In this document: positions 1-3,379 of the stretch, one piece after another | Position numbering within the stretch: position 1 is the first letter of the stretch | Layout of the letters: every line of letters starts with the position of its first letter | Source of the DNA: a virus | Length of the DNA: 24,912 nt | Virus record (IMG/VR): IMGVR_UViG_3300025652_000508 | Location: 1-24,912 of that record | Strand: one strand, 5' to 3' | Translations under genes and position numbers: made by a program | The notes under the pieces: model-generated | What the model saw: the letters and a program-made list of their open reading frames with translations, nothing else | What the model was told of the DNA's origin: nothing | Database searches by the model: none

Positions 1-85
1 TACGATCCTCGTACTCAAGAGCATCCCACTCTGCTTTATCTATGCTGCCATCACCATTGACATCAAATTTTTTAAACTCATCCAT
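1..85 (-). CDS. EF-hand calcium-binding protein, N-terminal part (cut by window edge)
   Basis: I translated this short frame by hand. An ATG at 85 opens a frame that stays open to base 1, giving 28 residues that begin MDEFKKFD. Residues 8-19 (DVNGDGSIDKAE) are a textbook 12-residue EF-hand loop: D at position 1, N at 3, D at 5, G at 6, I at 8 and E at 12. The next residues (WDALEYEDR) fit the exiting helix. A strong ribosome binding site (AGGAGA) lies about 6 bases before the ATG, and the upstream gene ends 10 bases away, so the start is convincing. The rest of the protein is outside the window, so its length and any second EF-hand are unknown. EF-hands bind calcium; what it does for the phage is not evident. 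It is the last visible gene of the secreted/membrane cassette. Confidence 0.75.
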   Translation of the reverse strand, partial: MDEFKKFDVNGDGSIDKAEWDALEYEDR

Positions 86-94
86 AGTTATCTC

Positions 95-574
95 CTAATC
101 AGACAGAGGATTATCCAATGCCCTCTGCAATTTACCCATCAACTTATCTTCAAGGTCTTTCATCTCAGCATCTTGATTTGATCGCAATCGTTCACGTTGC
201 GATTCGAATCTAAGATCTGCTGCATCAATCATACTGCGTACTTTTTCTTCTGTCTTACGCACCAAAGACTCGACACGATCTGATTGCTGCTCAACTCTAA
301 GAAGATCATCACGCAATCCATTCTTAATATCACGAGTGTAATCAACTGTCTGTTGTACTTGCGCATCCATCAGATCCATTTGCTGTTGGTACTCACCAAG
401 ATCTAAGCCAGCTACATCTTCTATCTTCTGATACATAACGAACCCACCATACAGGCCAGCAACTACAGTAGATACAAAGGTAATGATGGCAAGCACAGAT
501 GCAAAGGACATCTTAACACCACCAGCTTTAATCTGTTTGTCGGCAAGGCTATCAAATTCTGTAAGATCTACCAT
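95..574 (-). CDS. Membrane-anchored coiled-coil protein, unknown function
   Basis: The 159-residue protein has a short hydrophilic N-terminus, one hydrophobic segment at about residues 22-47 (FASVLAIITFVSTVVAGLYG and following), and then a long charged helix rich in Q, E, R and K, with heptad-like spacing from about residue 60 to the end. The topology suggests a single-pass inner-membrane protein with a coiled-coil tail, but orientation cannot be fixed from sequence. Its ATG shares one base with the stop codon of the preceding gene (TGATG), so the two are probably translationally coupled. It resembles conserved hypothetical proteins of marine phages; I know of no function. A spanin-like or holin-accessory role is possible from the topology alone, but nothing in the sequence proves it. 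Confidence 0.7.
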   Translation of the reverse strand: MVDLTEFDSLADKQIKAGGVKMSFASVLAIITFVSTVVAGLYGGFVMYQKIEDVAGLDLGEYQQQMDLMDAQVQQTVDYTRDIKNGLRDDLLRVEQQSDRVESLVRKTEEKVRSMIDAADLRFESQRERLRSNQDAEMKDLEDKLMGKLQRALDNPLSD

Positions 575-966
575 CAGTTTTCAAAGTCCATACTATCACT
601 AGATAAATTCTTTAGTGCTTCCAGTTCATCACGCAGCTTTTGTATCTCTAGCCTACGCTGGGCTAGCTCCACTTGGTATAGGTCATCACAATTAATACGA
701 GACTTAGGTTTGTCTAGCGGTATAACTATACGAGCATACACACCTATGTCTTTACCTCTACTCATTGTATCTAAACCAGACAGCACACCTGTAATCCCAT
801 ACTCAAGGTTAACTCCACCACCTACCGCATTGCTGCAGCGTAAATTATTTGCAGAGAAACTATCTGATTGGTAGTTCATAGGTGGACTAGGCAATGACAA
901 AGCAAGTGAGCTACTCTCAGCAAAGGCAGAGCTAGATAAAATACATAAGAGCGCAGCTAATCTCAT
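574..966 (-). CDS. Exported protein with C-terminal coiled coil, unknown function
   Basis: The 130-residue protein opens with a Sec-type signal peptide (MRLAALLCILSSSAFA, with an AFA-E cleavage site at about residue 16). The mature part has an N-terminal stretch rich in S, P and N, a glycine-rich central part (about 49-62), a probable beta strand YARIVIPL (about 77-84) and a charged C-terminal helix (about 95-125). The mature chain has exactly two cysteines, C44 and C93, consistent with one disulfide in the periplasm. The start ATG overlaps the upstream stop by four bases (ATGA). I recognise the general pattern from marine phage genomes, where it is annotated only as hypothetical. Periplasmic location is inferred from the signal peptide. 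Confidence 0.7.
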   Translation of the reverse strand: MRLAALLCILSSSAFAESSSLALSLPSPPMNYQSDSFSANNLRCSNAVGGGVNLEYGITGVLSGLDTMSRGKDIGVYARIVIPLDKPKSRINCDDLYQVELAQRRLEIQKLRDELEALKNLSSDSMDFEN

Positions 967-1352
967 GCTGGCATACCATCAAGTCGAGAACAAATCCTAG
1001 ATGACACTAGTGTTTTTGATTCGAGCTGCTTCTTAACCTTAGATGTTGTGCATACATAGGTGGCTTCATCCATGTCTGACTTACGAATGTATACACTGAA
1101 GTTCTTTCGAGTCTGGTATGCTACCTTAATTATTCTGTACGTTGCAGAAAAGGGGATGCTATCCCAGTTCAAATCAAACAAACCGATCTCGTAATACCTG
1201 ATCTCTTCCCTTGAGTTAAACAAAGACAAGTCAACCTTGACCACACCAGTAACGTGAGATGGTTTAACTATAGGATAAGCTGGTGTCATCTCATGTGCAT
1301 GGGTTGAAAATGCCCATACCAAAAAAAATATTATCAGCTTATTTTGCAACAC
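963..1352 (-). CDS. Exported protein with possible pilus-chaperone-like (Ig-like) fold
   Basis: The frame starts with GTG at 1352 (a TTG at 1349 is an alternative) and encodes 129 residues. Residues 1-19 form a signal peptide (FFLVWAFSTHA, then HEM). The mature part looks beta-rich and Ig-like, with alternating strand segments such as VKVDLSLFNSREE (about 38-50), YYEIGLFD (about 53-60) and KNFSVYIRKSD (about 83-93). These loosely recall the first domain of PapD-type periplasmic pilus chaperones. Mature cysteines C101 and C121 could form a disulfide. The gene overlaps the end of the upstream exported, beta-rich protein by 14 bases, which is suggestive because chaperone and subunit genes often pair. 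The fold suggestion is inference from strand patterning; no catalytic motif is visible. A run of eight T occurs in the signal-peptide codons. Confidence 0.65.
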   Translation of the reverse strand: MLQNKLIIFFLVWAFSTHAHEMTPAYPIVKPSHVTGVVKVDLSLFNSREEIRYYEIGLFDLNWDSIPFSATYRIIKVAYQTRKNFSVYIRKSDMDEATYVCTTSKVKKQLESKTLVSSRICSRLDGMPA

Positions 1353-1827
1353 AACTAGCCTGTACTATTGCAGTGTATACGCCACCAACGAAAGGCTTTG
1401 ATGCTGCATAGGTGGCACTTGATGCTGTGCTAAACCAAGTAGATCCTGCAACAGTTAGATCAAACACAGTAGTATTATCGTATACAACCTTGGCTGCATC
1501 ATACCCTGACATACCAGCGTCACTTGTTTGCGTGACACTAGTGCTGCCTGTCCATGCGACTGAATCAGTAAGTGCTGGGGAAGAGCTGAATGATGTTGGA
1601 TGTGTAATGTTTGCAGTGTAGTAGTTGGCAAGAGCTACATCAAATCTAATGACAGGTAGTACACCACCATCAGCAGGGGTAGTGCTTAACTTGCTAGCTA
1701 TAGGATTGCCATACACACCACTCTTAGTTGTTTGTATTACACACTTAGCTTCCACGTTACCTGTTATATCTACATCAGCGTAAGCTGGTAATGCACAGAG
1801 TGAAAGTATTGCCAAAGAATATTTCAT
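1339..1827 (-). CDS. Exported beta-rich protein, fimbrial/spore-coat-U-like in style
   Basis: I place the start at ATG 1827 rather than the in-frame ATG at 1839, because GAGG sits about seven bases before 1827, while the 1839 start would overlap the previous stop and lacks a good site. The 162-residue product has a signal peptide (MKYSLAILSLCALPAYA, then DVDI). The mature chain is rich in S, T, A, V and Y and looks like consecutive beta strands. It opens with DITGNVEAKCVIQ and ends with TAIVQASCVAK. C29 and C159 thus lie at the two ends and could staple the domain. The opening recalls spore-coat-U or fimbrial-subunit domains, in which an early cysteine follows a V-x-A pattern. That comparison is weak and unproven. 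Between two other exported proteins, it may be a periplasmic or surface component. Confidence 0.7.
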   Translation of the reverse strand: MKYSLAILSLCALPAYADVDITGNVEAKCVIQTTKSGVYGNPIASKLSTTPADGGVLPVIRFDVALANYYTANITHPTSFSSSPALTDSVAWTGSTSVTQTSDAGMSGYDAAKVVYDNTTVFDLTVAGSTWFSTASSATYAASKPFVGGVYTAIVQASCVAK

Positions 1828-1835
1828 ATTAAACC

Positions 1836-2708
1836 TCATTTGTTGTACTGCATATCAACCATTTGTTCGTGCAGTATTTGTTGTGCTAAGTTATTACGCA
1901 AGGCTTTCTTGTTATCAAGTATTTCTGAGTCAGCAAGACCAGCAGCGTCAGCATAAACACCACCATTGATAGATGCATTGTAGTACATAGCTATATTAGT
2001 CTGTTGATTAATAGCCATAATAATATCATCTTGCCCTTGCGTCTTAAAGAGGGTCAGCGCATTGGCAGATGCAGTCAAACCCATTTCAATTCTATTCTCT
2101 TCTTCTTCTTCCTCTTCATCCAGTATAAGATTACCATCCTCATCATACTGAAATTCTGTATCTGTATCTATAGCAGCAAGAACATTCTCATCTGCCATCA
2201 CATCATAGATCTCTACCTGTGGTATATCAGGCACAGGCTTTATATAACCAGCGCAAGATGGATCTGATTGTGGGTCATAACATACATCTATCCTGTAGTT
2301 GTATATAACAAATGCATCAGTAACGCTGCCTTCACCTTCTACCTCAATAGATCCAGCACCCCAGTTAGCTGATGGTATATTAGCCAGAGAAAAAGACTTG
2401 ACGATTGTATTGCTTGGGACACCTGACCAATCATCTGTCTCTCTAAATACATAGCCATCACCAGTAGAGTTGAGGTTGCCAACGTGTACCTTCATAGCGT
2501 CTTCTGTATTTTTAACTGTGGTGTACCTGTAGAGTAATCCGTTTATATCTAAGCCAACAGCATCAGGCAAAACACCAGCCATCCCCCAGCTTAACGAGCT
2601 GGATGCAGCATTGCCTGTAGCCCCATAAGTATATGGGTCAGAGTAATAACAAGAAGGCCAGAGTGCTAATGATAACACCAAGGCCAATCTTAGTTTCGCT
2701 GTTCTCAT
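1836..2708 (-). CDS. Exported protein with acidic poly-glutamate tract, unknown function
   Basis: The 290-residue protein begins with an N-terminal signal sequence (MRTAKLRLALVLSLALWPSC). AGAGG lies about seven bases before the ATG, so I accept this start even though it overlaps the upstream gene by 71 bases. The mature part is beta-rich to about residue 140 and includes DGYVFRETDDWSGVP (about 84-98). C143 and C152 form a tight pair in a D/P/S-rich segment. Residues 181-204 are very acidic and end in seven consecutive glutamates (198-204). The C-terminal 80 residues are probably helical. C20 lies near the likely cleavage site, but its context (WPSC) is a poor lipobox, so I do not call it a lipoprotein. 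It resembles conserved hypothetical proteins of marine phages. Confidence 0.65.
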   Translation of the reverse strand: MRTAKLRLALVLSLALWPSCYYSDPYTYGATGNAASSSLSWGMAGVLPDAVGLDINGLLYRYTTVKNTEDAMKVHVGNLNSTGDGYVFRETDDWSGVPSNTIVKSFSLANIPSANWGAGSIEVEGEGSVTDAFVIYNYRIDVCYDPQSDPSCAGYIKPVPDIPQVEIYDVMADENVLAAIDTDTEFQYDEDGNLILDEEEEEEENRIEMGLTASANALTLFKTQGQDDIIMAINQQTNIAMYYNASINGGVYADAAGLADSEILDNKKALRNNLAQQILHEQMVDMQYNK

Positions 2709-3186
2709 TGAACATCCTCTTGATTACATCGTTCTGATCTCGCTCGATCTCTTGCTTAACCGATTCCATTTCCCATGCTAGCCTAGCCTTATCTCCTACC
2801 AACCCATCTTTAGGGCAAGGAGTACCAGCATTAAGCATAGCATCAAACACTCTTTCGTCTTGGCACATTACTGATACGGCTGCCACTTTCATCCCCATAT
2901 CGTACATGGTTTTGGCGTTCTTTAATTTTTCACAGTTCATATCTCTAACAGTACGACCAGCAGAGATACCAAGTATCTGTGTTTGTACTGCACCAGCTAC
3001 ACCAACAGTACATAAGTCACTGTTACTCGCGCTAATCTGTGGGGAAATTGCAGAGGGTGGTGGACTGTTGATGGTTGTGTCCATCTTTCCATCCGATATT
3101 ACTGTACTCTCTGACTTAATTGTATCATCAGCAGCTAATGCGCTGCCGATTAAAATAAACAAACCAATTAATATTGTTCGTAACAT
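2638..3186 (-). CDS. Exported protein with C-terminal membrane anchor, unknown function
   Basis: The 182-residue protein has a clear signal peptide (MLRTILIGLFILIGSALA, then ADD) and a C-terminal hydrophobic segment (about residues 167-182, GLGVIISTLAFLLLL). It is therefore probably held in the inner membrane with its body in the periplasm. The mature part contains four cysteines (C59, C85, C108, C124), enough for two disulfides. The conserved-looking core around residues 56-126 includes DLCTVG, AVQTQILGIS, RDMNCEKL and DAMLNAGTPCP. I recognise this core from proteins found repeatedly in marine phages, always of unknown function. The charged helix at about 133-163 links core and anchor. It starts one base after the stop of the XhlA-like gene and is the first of five consecutive exported products. 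Confidence 0.7.
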   Translation of the reverse strand: MLRTILIGLFILIGSALAADDTIKSESTVISDGKMDTTINSPPPSAISPQISASNSDLCTVGVAGAVQTQILGISAGRTVRDMNCEKLKNAKTMYDMGMKVAAVSVMCQDERVFDAMLNAGTPCPKDGLVGDKARLAWEMESVKQEIERDQNDVIKRMFNENSETKIGLGVIISTLAFLLLL

Positions 3187-3187
3187 G

Positions 3188-3379
3188 TTACATTTTCATT
3201 AGTACCGCAACGAGCAGGGTTAATATTGCTCCTGTTGCTGCAATCATAATGCTTTCCATACGTTTAACTCGACCAAATAGATCTTTGAATTGTATCTTAA
3301 CTTCTGTTTTAATTGCAACCACTTGCTTTTCTAGCTCGTCAAGCCTGTCATGCGCAGAAGATATAGTTCTTTTATTCAT
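3188..3379 (-). CDS. Small membrane protein, XhlA/holin-accessory-like
   Basis: The 63-residue protein has a charged amphipathic N-terminal helix (about 8-42) with heptad-like hydrophobics (LDELEKQVVAIKTEV) and one C-terminal transmembrane helix (about 44-62, SIMIAATGAILTLLVAVLM). This matches the architecture of the haemolysin XhlA family, small coiled-coil/TM proteins that assist phage lysis. AAGGAAG precedes the ATG by about five bases. It follows the tail-assembly-chaperone-like gene after 8 bases and precedes the exported-protein cassette. It is the only plausible lysis-linked membrane protein in the window. No endolysin is visible, so a lysis role is inference from architecture. Confidence 0.6.
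   Translation of the reverse strand: MNKRTISSAHDRLDELEKQVVAIKTEVKIQFKDLFGRVKRMESIMIAATGAILTLLVAVLMKM

Follow-up and report, generated by a model that had tools for sequence, protein, structure and literature searches.

A conserved block of exported proteins in the late region of a marine phage contains a gene trio shared with Vibrio phages and bacteria

Gene content and export signals

The stretch of DNA analysed here, hereafter the window, is a 24.9-kb virus contig fragment from IMG/VR (IMGVR_UViG_3300025652_000508, positions 1 to 24,912 of that record; G+C 39.5%), whose minus strand carries a podovirus-type late region with terminase large subunit, portal, capsid, tail tubular proteins, internal virion proteins and tail fibres; the terminase large subunit is 63% identical to its counterpart in Pelagibacter phage EXVC031P. 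Positions 1 to 3186 hold, on the same strand, a block of seven genes termed A to G in order of transcription, the first five of which encode proteins with predicted signal peptides. A (2638..3186) has a signal peptide at about residues 1–18, four invariant cysteines and a C-terminal hydrophobic segment (residues 164–182), and belongs to a marine-phage family that is part of phrog_20531. B (1836..2708), with the weakest signal peptide, consists of an N-terminal region containing a cysteine pair, a Pro/acidic linker and a conserved C-terminal segment ending VDMQYNK. C (1339..1839), related to phrog_25895, is a predicted exported beta-sandwich with Cys33 and Cys163, and D (963..1352) a predicted exported single PapD-like Ig domain with Cys101 and Cys121. 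E (574..966), related to phrog_37374, is a small exported protein in which Cys44 and Cys93 bracket two probable beta-strands, with a probable helix after them. F (95..574) combines an N-terminal membrane segment with a long coiled coil ending NPLSD, an i-spanin-like topology, and G (1..85) encodes the N-terminal portion of an EF-hand protein that has membrane segments; the contig end cuts this gene, whose product measures about 107 aa in relatives. Neighbouring genes overlap by 71 nt (A/B), by ATGA (B/C and D/E), by 14 nt (C/D) and by 1 nt (E/F), and A–E are therefore probably co-translated.

A rule-based scan of n-, h- and c-regions, applied to the 25 proteins of the window, gave strong signal-peptide scores only for A, C, D and E (3.6–4.5). 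B scored lower (2.0), and the closest of the remaining proteins was tail tubular protein A, at 1.8 with a poor h-region. A first-pass annotation of this DNA had proposed five consecutive genes with signal peptides, which was borne out by both the open reading frames (ORFs) and the scan. Assuming that exactly five of the 25 genes are exported, the chance of all five being consecutive is 21/53130, or approximately 4e-4. In alignments of 38–54 distinct homologues of A–E, the mature chains were conserved and the signal segments variable, and cysteines were retained in 98–100% of homologues at positions 59, 85, 108 and 124 of A, 143 and 152 of B, 33 and 163 of C, 101 and 121 of D, and 44 and 93 of E. 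The paired cysteines noted in the first pass were thus near-invariant, with two amendments: the pair numbered C29/159 in C corresponds to C33/163, the earlier count having begun at an inner ATG, and C20 of B is shared by just 16% of homologues and does not form part of a lipobox. The possibility that B is a lipoprotein was ruled out, since this cysteine is not conserved. Median ratios of non-synonymous to synonymous substitution rates (dN/dS) were 0.07 for A, 0.14 for B, 0.13 for C, 0.12 for D and 0.09 for E, a range which makes purifying selection clear.

Conservation of the block and its two modules

Relatives of the block were collected from IMG/VR as 80 loci found through A and 77 further loci seeded on E; both searches retain best matches only, so that scattered distant versions may escape them. 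The order A-B-C-D-E-F-G was constant wherever the contig was long enough, with 95 complete loci, some contigs appearing twice with different locus identifiers; loci with other patterns were mostly contig ends, isolated phages or Vibrio phages. Conserved order in related phages had been set beforehand as a test of the block, and F and G, earlier suggested as possible members, follow E in all sufficiently long relatives. The block is present on contigs of up to 100 kb; the tail-fibre genes upstream of it differ between contigs, and downstream come a holin-like protein with three transmembrane segments and then an endolysin of at least two types. Directly upstream of A in the window lies a gene for a 63-aa protein with one membrane segment (3188..3379, minus strand), whose conservation is limited to the closest relatives. 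Sequence searches of Pfam and PDB with A–F or C–E returned no match. The block was also seen on four contigs (L223-L226) of the metagenome-assembled genome Rhodobacteraceae bacterium Water_Bin34, two of them (44 and 71 kb) with a divergent version; these contigs are probably binned phages and give a hint at the host.

The block appears to consist of at least two modules, an A set with F- and G-like neighbours and a separate C-D-E trio, as A recurs without C-D-E in marine phages and C-D-E recurs without A and B in Vibrio phages and bacteria. Clear homologues of A were found in isolates of differing types, including HTVC033P, HTVC202P, HTVC115P, HTVC023P, Baldr, Mosig (Kyanoviridae), a Votkovvirus and roseophages, and no C, D or E was found in the A-carrying isolates searched. 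In the pelagiphages and the Votkovvirus, A is followed by an acidic protein of 430–610 aa, exported in most, and then by a membrane coiled-coil protein; these coiled-coil proteins mostly end in NPL plus a few residues and are related to F (profile E-value 8.9e-11). Roseophages carry a different protein between A and the coiled-coil position. B was compared with the long acidic pelagiphage proteins (B'), and homology is not claimed, the match being confined to a short C-terminal stretch. The pair of exported proteins is recurrent in unrelated phages: in seven isolated marine phages A lies directly, or one small gene apart, before the 430–610 aa acidic Glu-rich protein, which is annotated as 'carbohydrate binding' in two of them. 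The GenBank records of Pelagibacter phages Hodr and Baldr (OQ414635, OQ414636) appear to carry each other's locus tags.

The suggestion that these genes form a multi-protein envelope system therefore held in part: the block is conserved as a unit and adjoins lysis genes, but comprises at least two modules rather than one five-gene system.

Occurrence of the C-D-E trio in other phages and in bacteria

Vibrio phages carry C, D and E without A and B, with C matching 179 records, D likewise 179, and E 196 (185 of them Vibrio). The carriers are T5-like Thalassavirus (~120–128 kb), Queuovirinae (~59–60 kb) and phages of 79–84 kb, which are unrelated lineages. In the Vibrio records examined, the order is C-D-E, with one or two large genes immediately before the trio; those that were tested belong to the phrog_10818 type. 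The 770–860 aa protein preceding the trio was considered as an usher and ruled out, being phrog_10818 without a signal peptide or an usher match. Marine and Vibrio profiles matched each other at E-values of 2.6e-7 for C, 2.1e-4 for D and 3.4e-13 for E, and unrelated pairs at 0.098 or worse. Some published starts lie too far downstream, namely for E in Vibrio phage River4 (L087:4890-5279) and for D and E in pVco-14 (L088:4549-5270), and the longer frames include signal peptides. Vibrio phage D81 carries another envelope-modifying gene, annotated as PagP-like lipid A acylation (L188:9224-9661), ~4 kb downstream of C-D. Homologues of E were also found in Erwinia (Vequintavirinae) and Klebsiella jumbo phages (E-value 1.5e-9 to marine E), flanked by a pair of exported proteins that match D and C in size, in the order D-E-C; profile comparison detected no sequence similarity of these neighbours to C or D, and they are thus positional counterparts only. 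No account of such a phage module was found in the open-access PubMed Central literature.

Among 398 sampled Pseudomonadota genomes, the Water_Bin34 assembly apart, E profile relatives were present in eight. Six lie in clear exported operons, arranged C-D-E-C2 in four similar high-G+C genomes, C-D-E in one and D-E-C in another; the seventh locus combines D-E-C with an additional C-like gene, and the eighth is less certain. The genes flanking the bacterial trios look ordinary chromosomal. A trio locus was carried by 11/81 genomes of one alphaproteobacterial family, and 3/754 genomes in two class-wide samples (two centre genomes included), a frequency that marks the trio as sporadic in bacteria. 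E is also encoded on plasmids of Vibrio nigripulchritudo, V. campbellii, Vibrio sp. THAF190c and Mesorhizobium sp. B2-1-8, the last with a complete C-D-E-C2 in which every gene is annotated 'hypothetical protein'. Profile comparison linked bacterial C to Vibrio-phage C (6.9e-9) and bacterial D to marine D (2.8e-5); no NCBIfam or Pfam model scored above cut-off for the trio proteins, all of which are annotated as hypothetical. Together, profile matches and gene order support well that C-D-E is a trio co-inherited in unrelated phages and bacteria. At three loci the trio lies beside cyclic-di-GMP genes (GGDEF-EAL and HD-GYP-like genes at one, an EAL gene overlapping E at another, and an EAL gene 1.1 kb from C at the third), a neighbourhood suggestive of an adhesive surface structure.

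Predicted structures of the trio proteins

The AlphaFold model of D (predicted local distance difference test score, pLDDT, 89.1) aligned best, among solved chains compared with VIA-align, with domain 1 of the pilus chaperones FimC, Caf1M, DraB, SfaE, PapD and CsuC (Z 9–10.3, root-mean-square deviation ~3 over ~100 residues); pilus chaperones made up nearly all of the top-ranking solved matches, and other Ig domains of the PapD superfamily (MSP, FixG) ranked just below. A profile of Vibrio-phage and bacterial D matched bacterial PapD-type chaperones with an E-value of 7.3e-5, against 0.32 or worse for the controls C, E, A and B. D is thus confidently modelled as a single PapD-type Ig domain with the fold of pilus chaperone domain 1. 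The top Foldseek match is a Cu-only superoxide dismutase, and the fold is therefore no proof of function.

C was modelled as a beta-sandwich (pLDDT 91.7), for which the Foldseek matches repeatedly included pilins, among them the PapG pilin domain, CfaB, FimF, PapA, CsuA/B and PapK at probabilities of 0.44–0.99. Its residues 1–10 are loosely placed and carry a conserved alternating I4-G6-V8 pattern which resembles the N-terminal extension of pilins. E, a conserved small exported protein, probably has two strands like those of outer-membrane proteins, followed by a helix. The first-pass statement that no gene of the block has a known function can be narrowed from these single-chain models for D, as a PapD-like chaperone domain, and less firmly for C, as a pilin-like sandwich.

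Proposed function and alternative explanations

It is proposed that D acts as a chaperone for C, that C and E reshape the cell surface of the host at a late stage of infection, and that A, B, F and G act with lysis; we put the probability of this reading at about 0.45. Late in infection, the host Sec system would export all five proteins A–E, whose cysteines would form disulfides in the periplasm. D would bind and protect C in the manner of a chaperone and its subunit, and C would then be passed to the outer membrane or surface, where E might stand in for an usher as an outer-membrane or anchoring partner. A coat or short fibre formed in this way would alter the surface of the infected cell, most likely blocking re-adsorption by sibling or progeny phages (superinfection exclusion or receptor masking), and might also aid cell-cell adhesion. 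Superinfection exclusion or receptor masking is the first choice because the trio is repeatedly found beside tail-fibre-type genes and because phage T5 offers a precedent, its Llp being a small periplasmic disulfide protein that blocks the phage's own receptor FhuA (PMC9586334). Adhesion comes second, on account of the cyclic-di-GMP neighbours in bacteria and of the exported fibre system, curli, carried by marine phages (PMC9599517). A, B, F and G would form an envelope-spanning part beside holin and endolysin and would probably help or time the opening of the outer envelope; a role at lysis is plausible for them from their position and from the topology of F.

Several known systems share features with the block. 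The fold of D and the adjacent C, a small exported sandwich with Foldseek similarity to pilins, recall chaperone-usher pili (PapD/FimC/CsuC in the Pap, Fim and Csu systems), whereas here the chaperone has a single domain, there is neither usher nor adhesin, E is an extra partner, and matches at Pfam level are lacking. Like the curli genes (type VIII secretion) of pelagiphages and methylophages (PMC9599517, PMC9004378), the block is a marine, multi-gene exported set conserved in order across unrelated phages; unlike them, it encodes different folds and also occurs in Vibrio phages and bacterial operons, and no Pfam match to CsgG, CsgF or CsgA was found in A–F. T5 Llp is likewise a small exported, phage-encoded disulfide protein, but it is a lipoprotein acting alone, whereas the block is multi-gene and not lipidated. 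F may share with Rz/Rz1 spanins an inner-membrane anchor and periplasmic coiled coil near holin and endolysin, but no outer-membrane lipoprotein partner was found on this genome fragment, the sole candidate being the poorly conserved C20 of B.

Several observations weigh against the chaperone-subunit reading. D (129 aa, ~110 mature) lacks the second domain of classical chaperones, which have two domains and ~200 aa. The best VIA-align matches of C were generic sandwiches (Z up to 7.2) with no pilins listed, and the profile match of C to spore-coat-U pilins was not significant; for these two reasons C is called pilin-like rather than a pilin. The first and last strands of C also appear to be tied by a disulfide, and a donor-strand groove could be closed by this link. 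E lacks a confident fold, and its assignment as a TolC/OEP-type protein was not borne out, with an Erwinia homologue scoring 18.6 bits, below the cut-off of 22 (E-value 0.0017), and profile-profile E-values of 0.008 to 0.24. No usher or other recognised secretion pore is encoded in the block on this 24.9-kb fragment, which is a partial genome, and no usher (a barrel of ~800 aa) was apparent among the ORFs of four bacterial loci of 9–11 kb, where one could lie elsewhere in the genome. Finally, the adjacency to cyclic-di-GMP genes concerns three loci only.

Alternatively, the whole block might be lysis machinery, an outer-envelope-disrupting complex that replaces the Rz/Rz1 spanins, with F as the inner-membrane coiled coil and A, B and C–E as periplasmic or outer-membrane parts. 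The holin-like gene and endolysin that come after the block, the i-spanin topology of F and its weak match to an Rz-like PHROG (E-value 0.03), the closeness of an A-B'-F set to lysozyme or holin genes in a number of marine phages, and the position of the trio before holin and endolysin in Vibrio T5-like phages would all fit. However, the block shows no lipoprotein o-spanin, C20 of B being poorly conserved; the trio or its counterpart lies away from lysis genes in Queuovirinae and in Klebsiella jumbo phages, and trios on bacterial chromosomes cannot serve phage lysis. We consider this explanation unlikely for the block as a whole.

It has also to be asked whether the five exported proteins work independently, as small periplasmic blockers or morons comparable to T5 Llp or T1 Cor, which would serve superinfection exclusion or defence and would merely have accumulated at a late locus without forming a complex. 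Llp, which closes its receptor from the inside (PMC9586334), and the tail-fibre-type genes adjoining the trio are in keeping with this view. Morons come and go, whereas A to G are constant in order and presence in all long enough relatives and the members of the trio remain linked across unrelated phages and in bacteria; the low dN/dS and the absence of a conserved lipobox from all five proteins likewise argue against separate blockers, and we hold this view, too, to be improbable. Last, the trio proteins (or A and B) might be exported yet become accessory receptor-binding components of the virion or of released vesicles, as their location after tail-fibre-type genes in several lineages could suggest. 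The virions of tailed phages are assembled in the cytoplasm, however, and the signal peptides and disulfide-type cysteines of all five proteins, together with bacterial homologues outside phages, make this very improbable.

Implications

Beyond the late chaperone-subunit reading, it may be speculated, though we regard this as rather doubtful, that C-D-E is an undescribed usher-free chaperone-subunit surface system in which a single-domain PapD-like chaperone and a pilin-like subunit work with E, a dedicated outer-membrane partner that replaces the usher, and which is controlled by cyclic-di-GMP in bacteria and was captured independently by several phage lineages to coat infected cells. If so, minimal usher-free, chaperone-assisted surface subunits would exist that were missed because their parts are small and fit no family model, and such a system would be widespread in lytic phages, among them an abundant marine lineage and ~180 sequenced Vibrio phages. 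The trio would provide a testable set of genes for late changes made to the host surface by lytic phages, and Vibrio phages with laboratory hosts make such testing practical.

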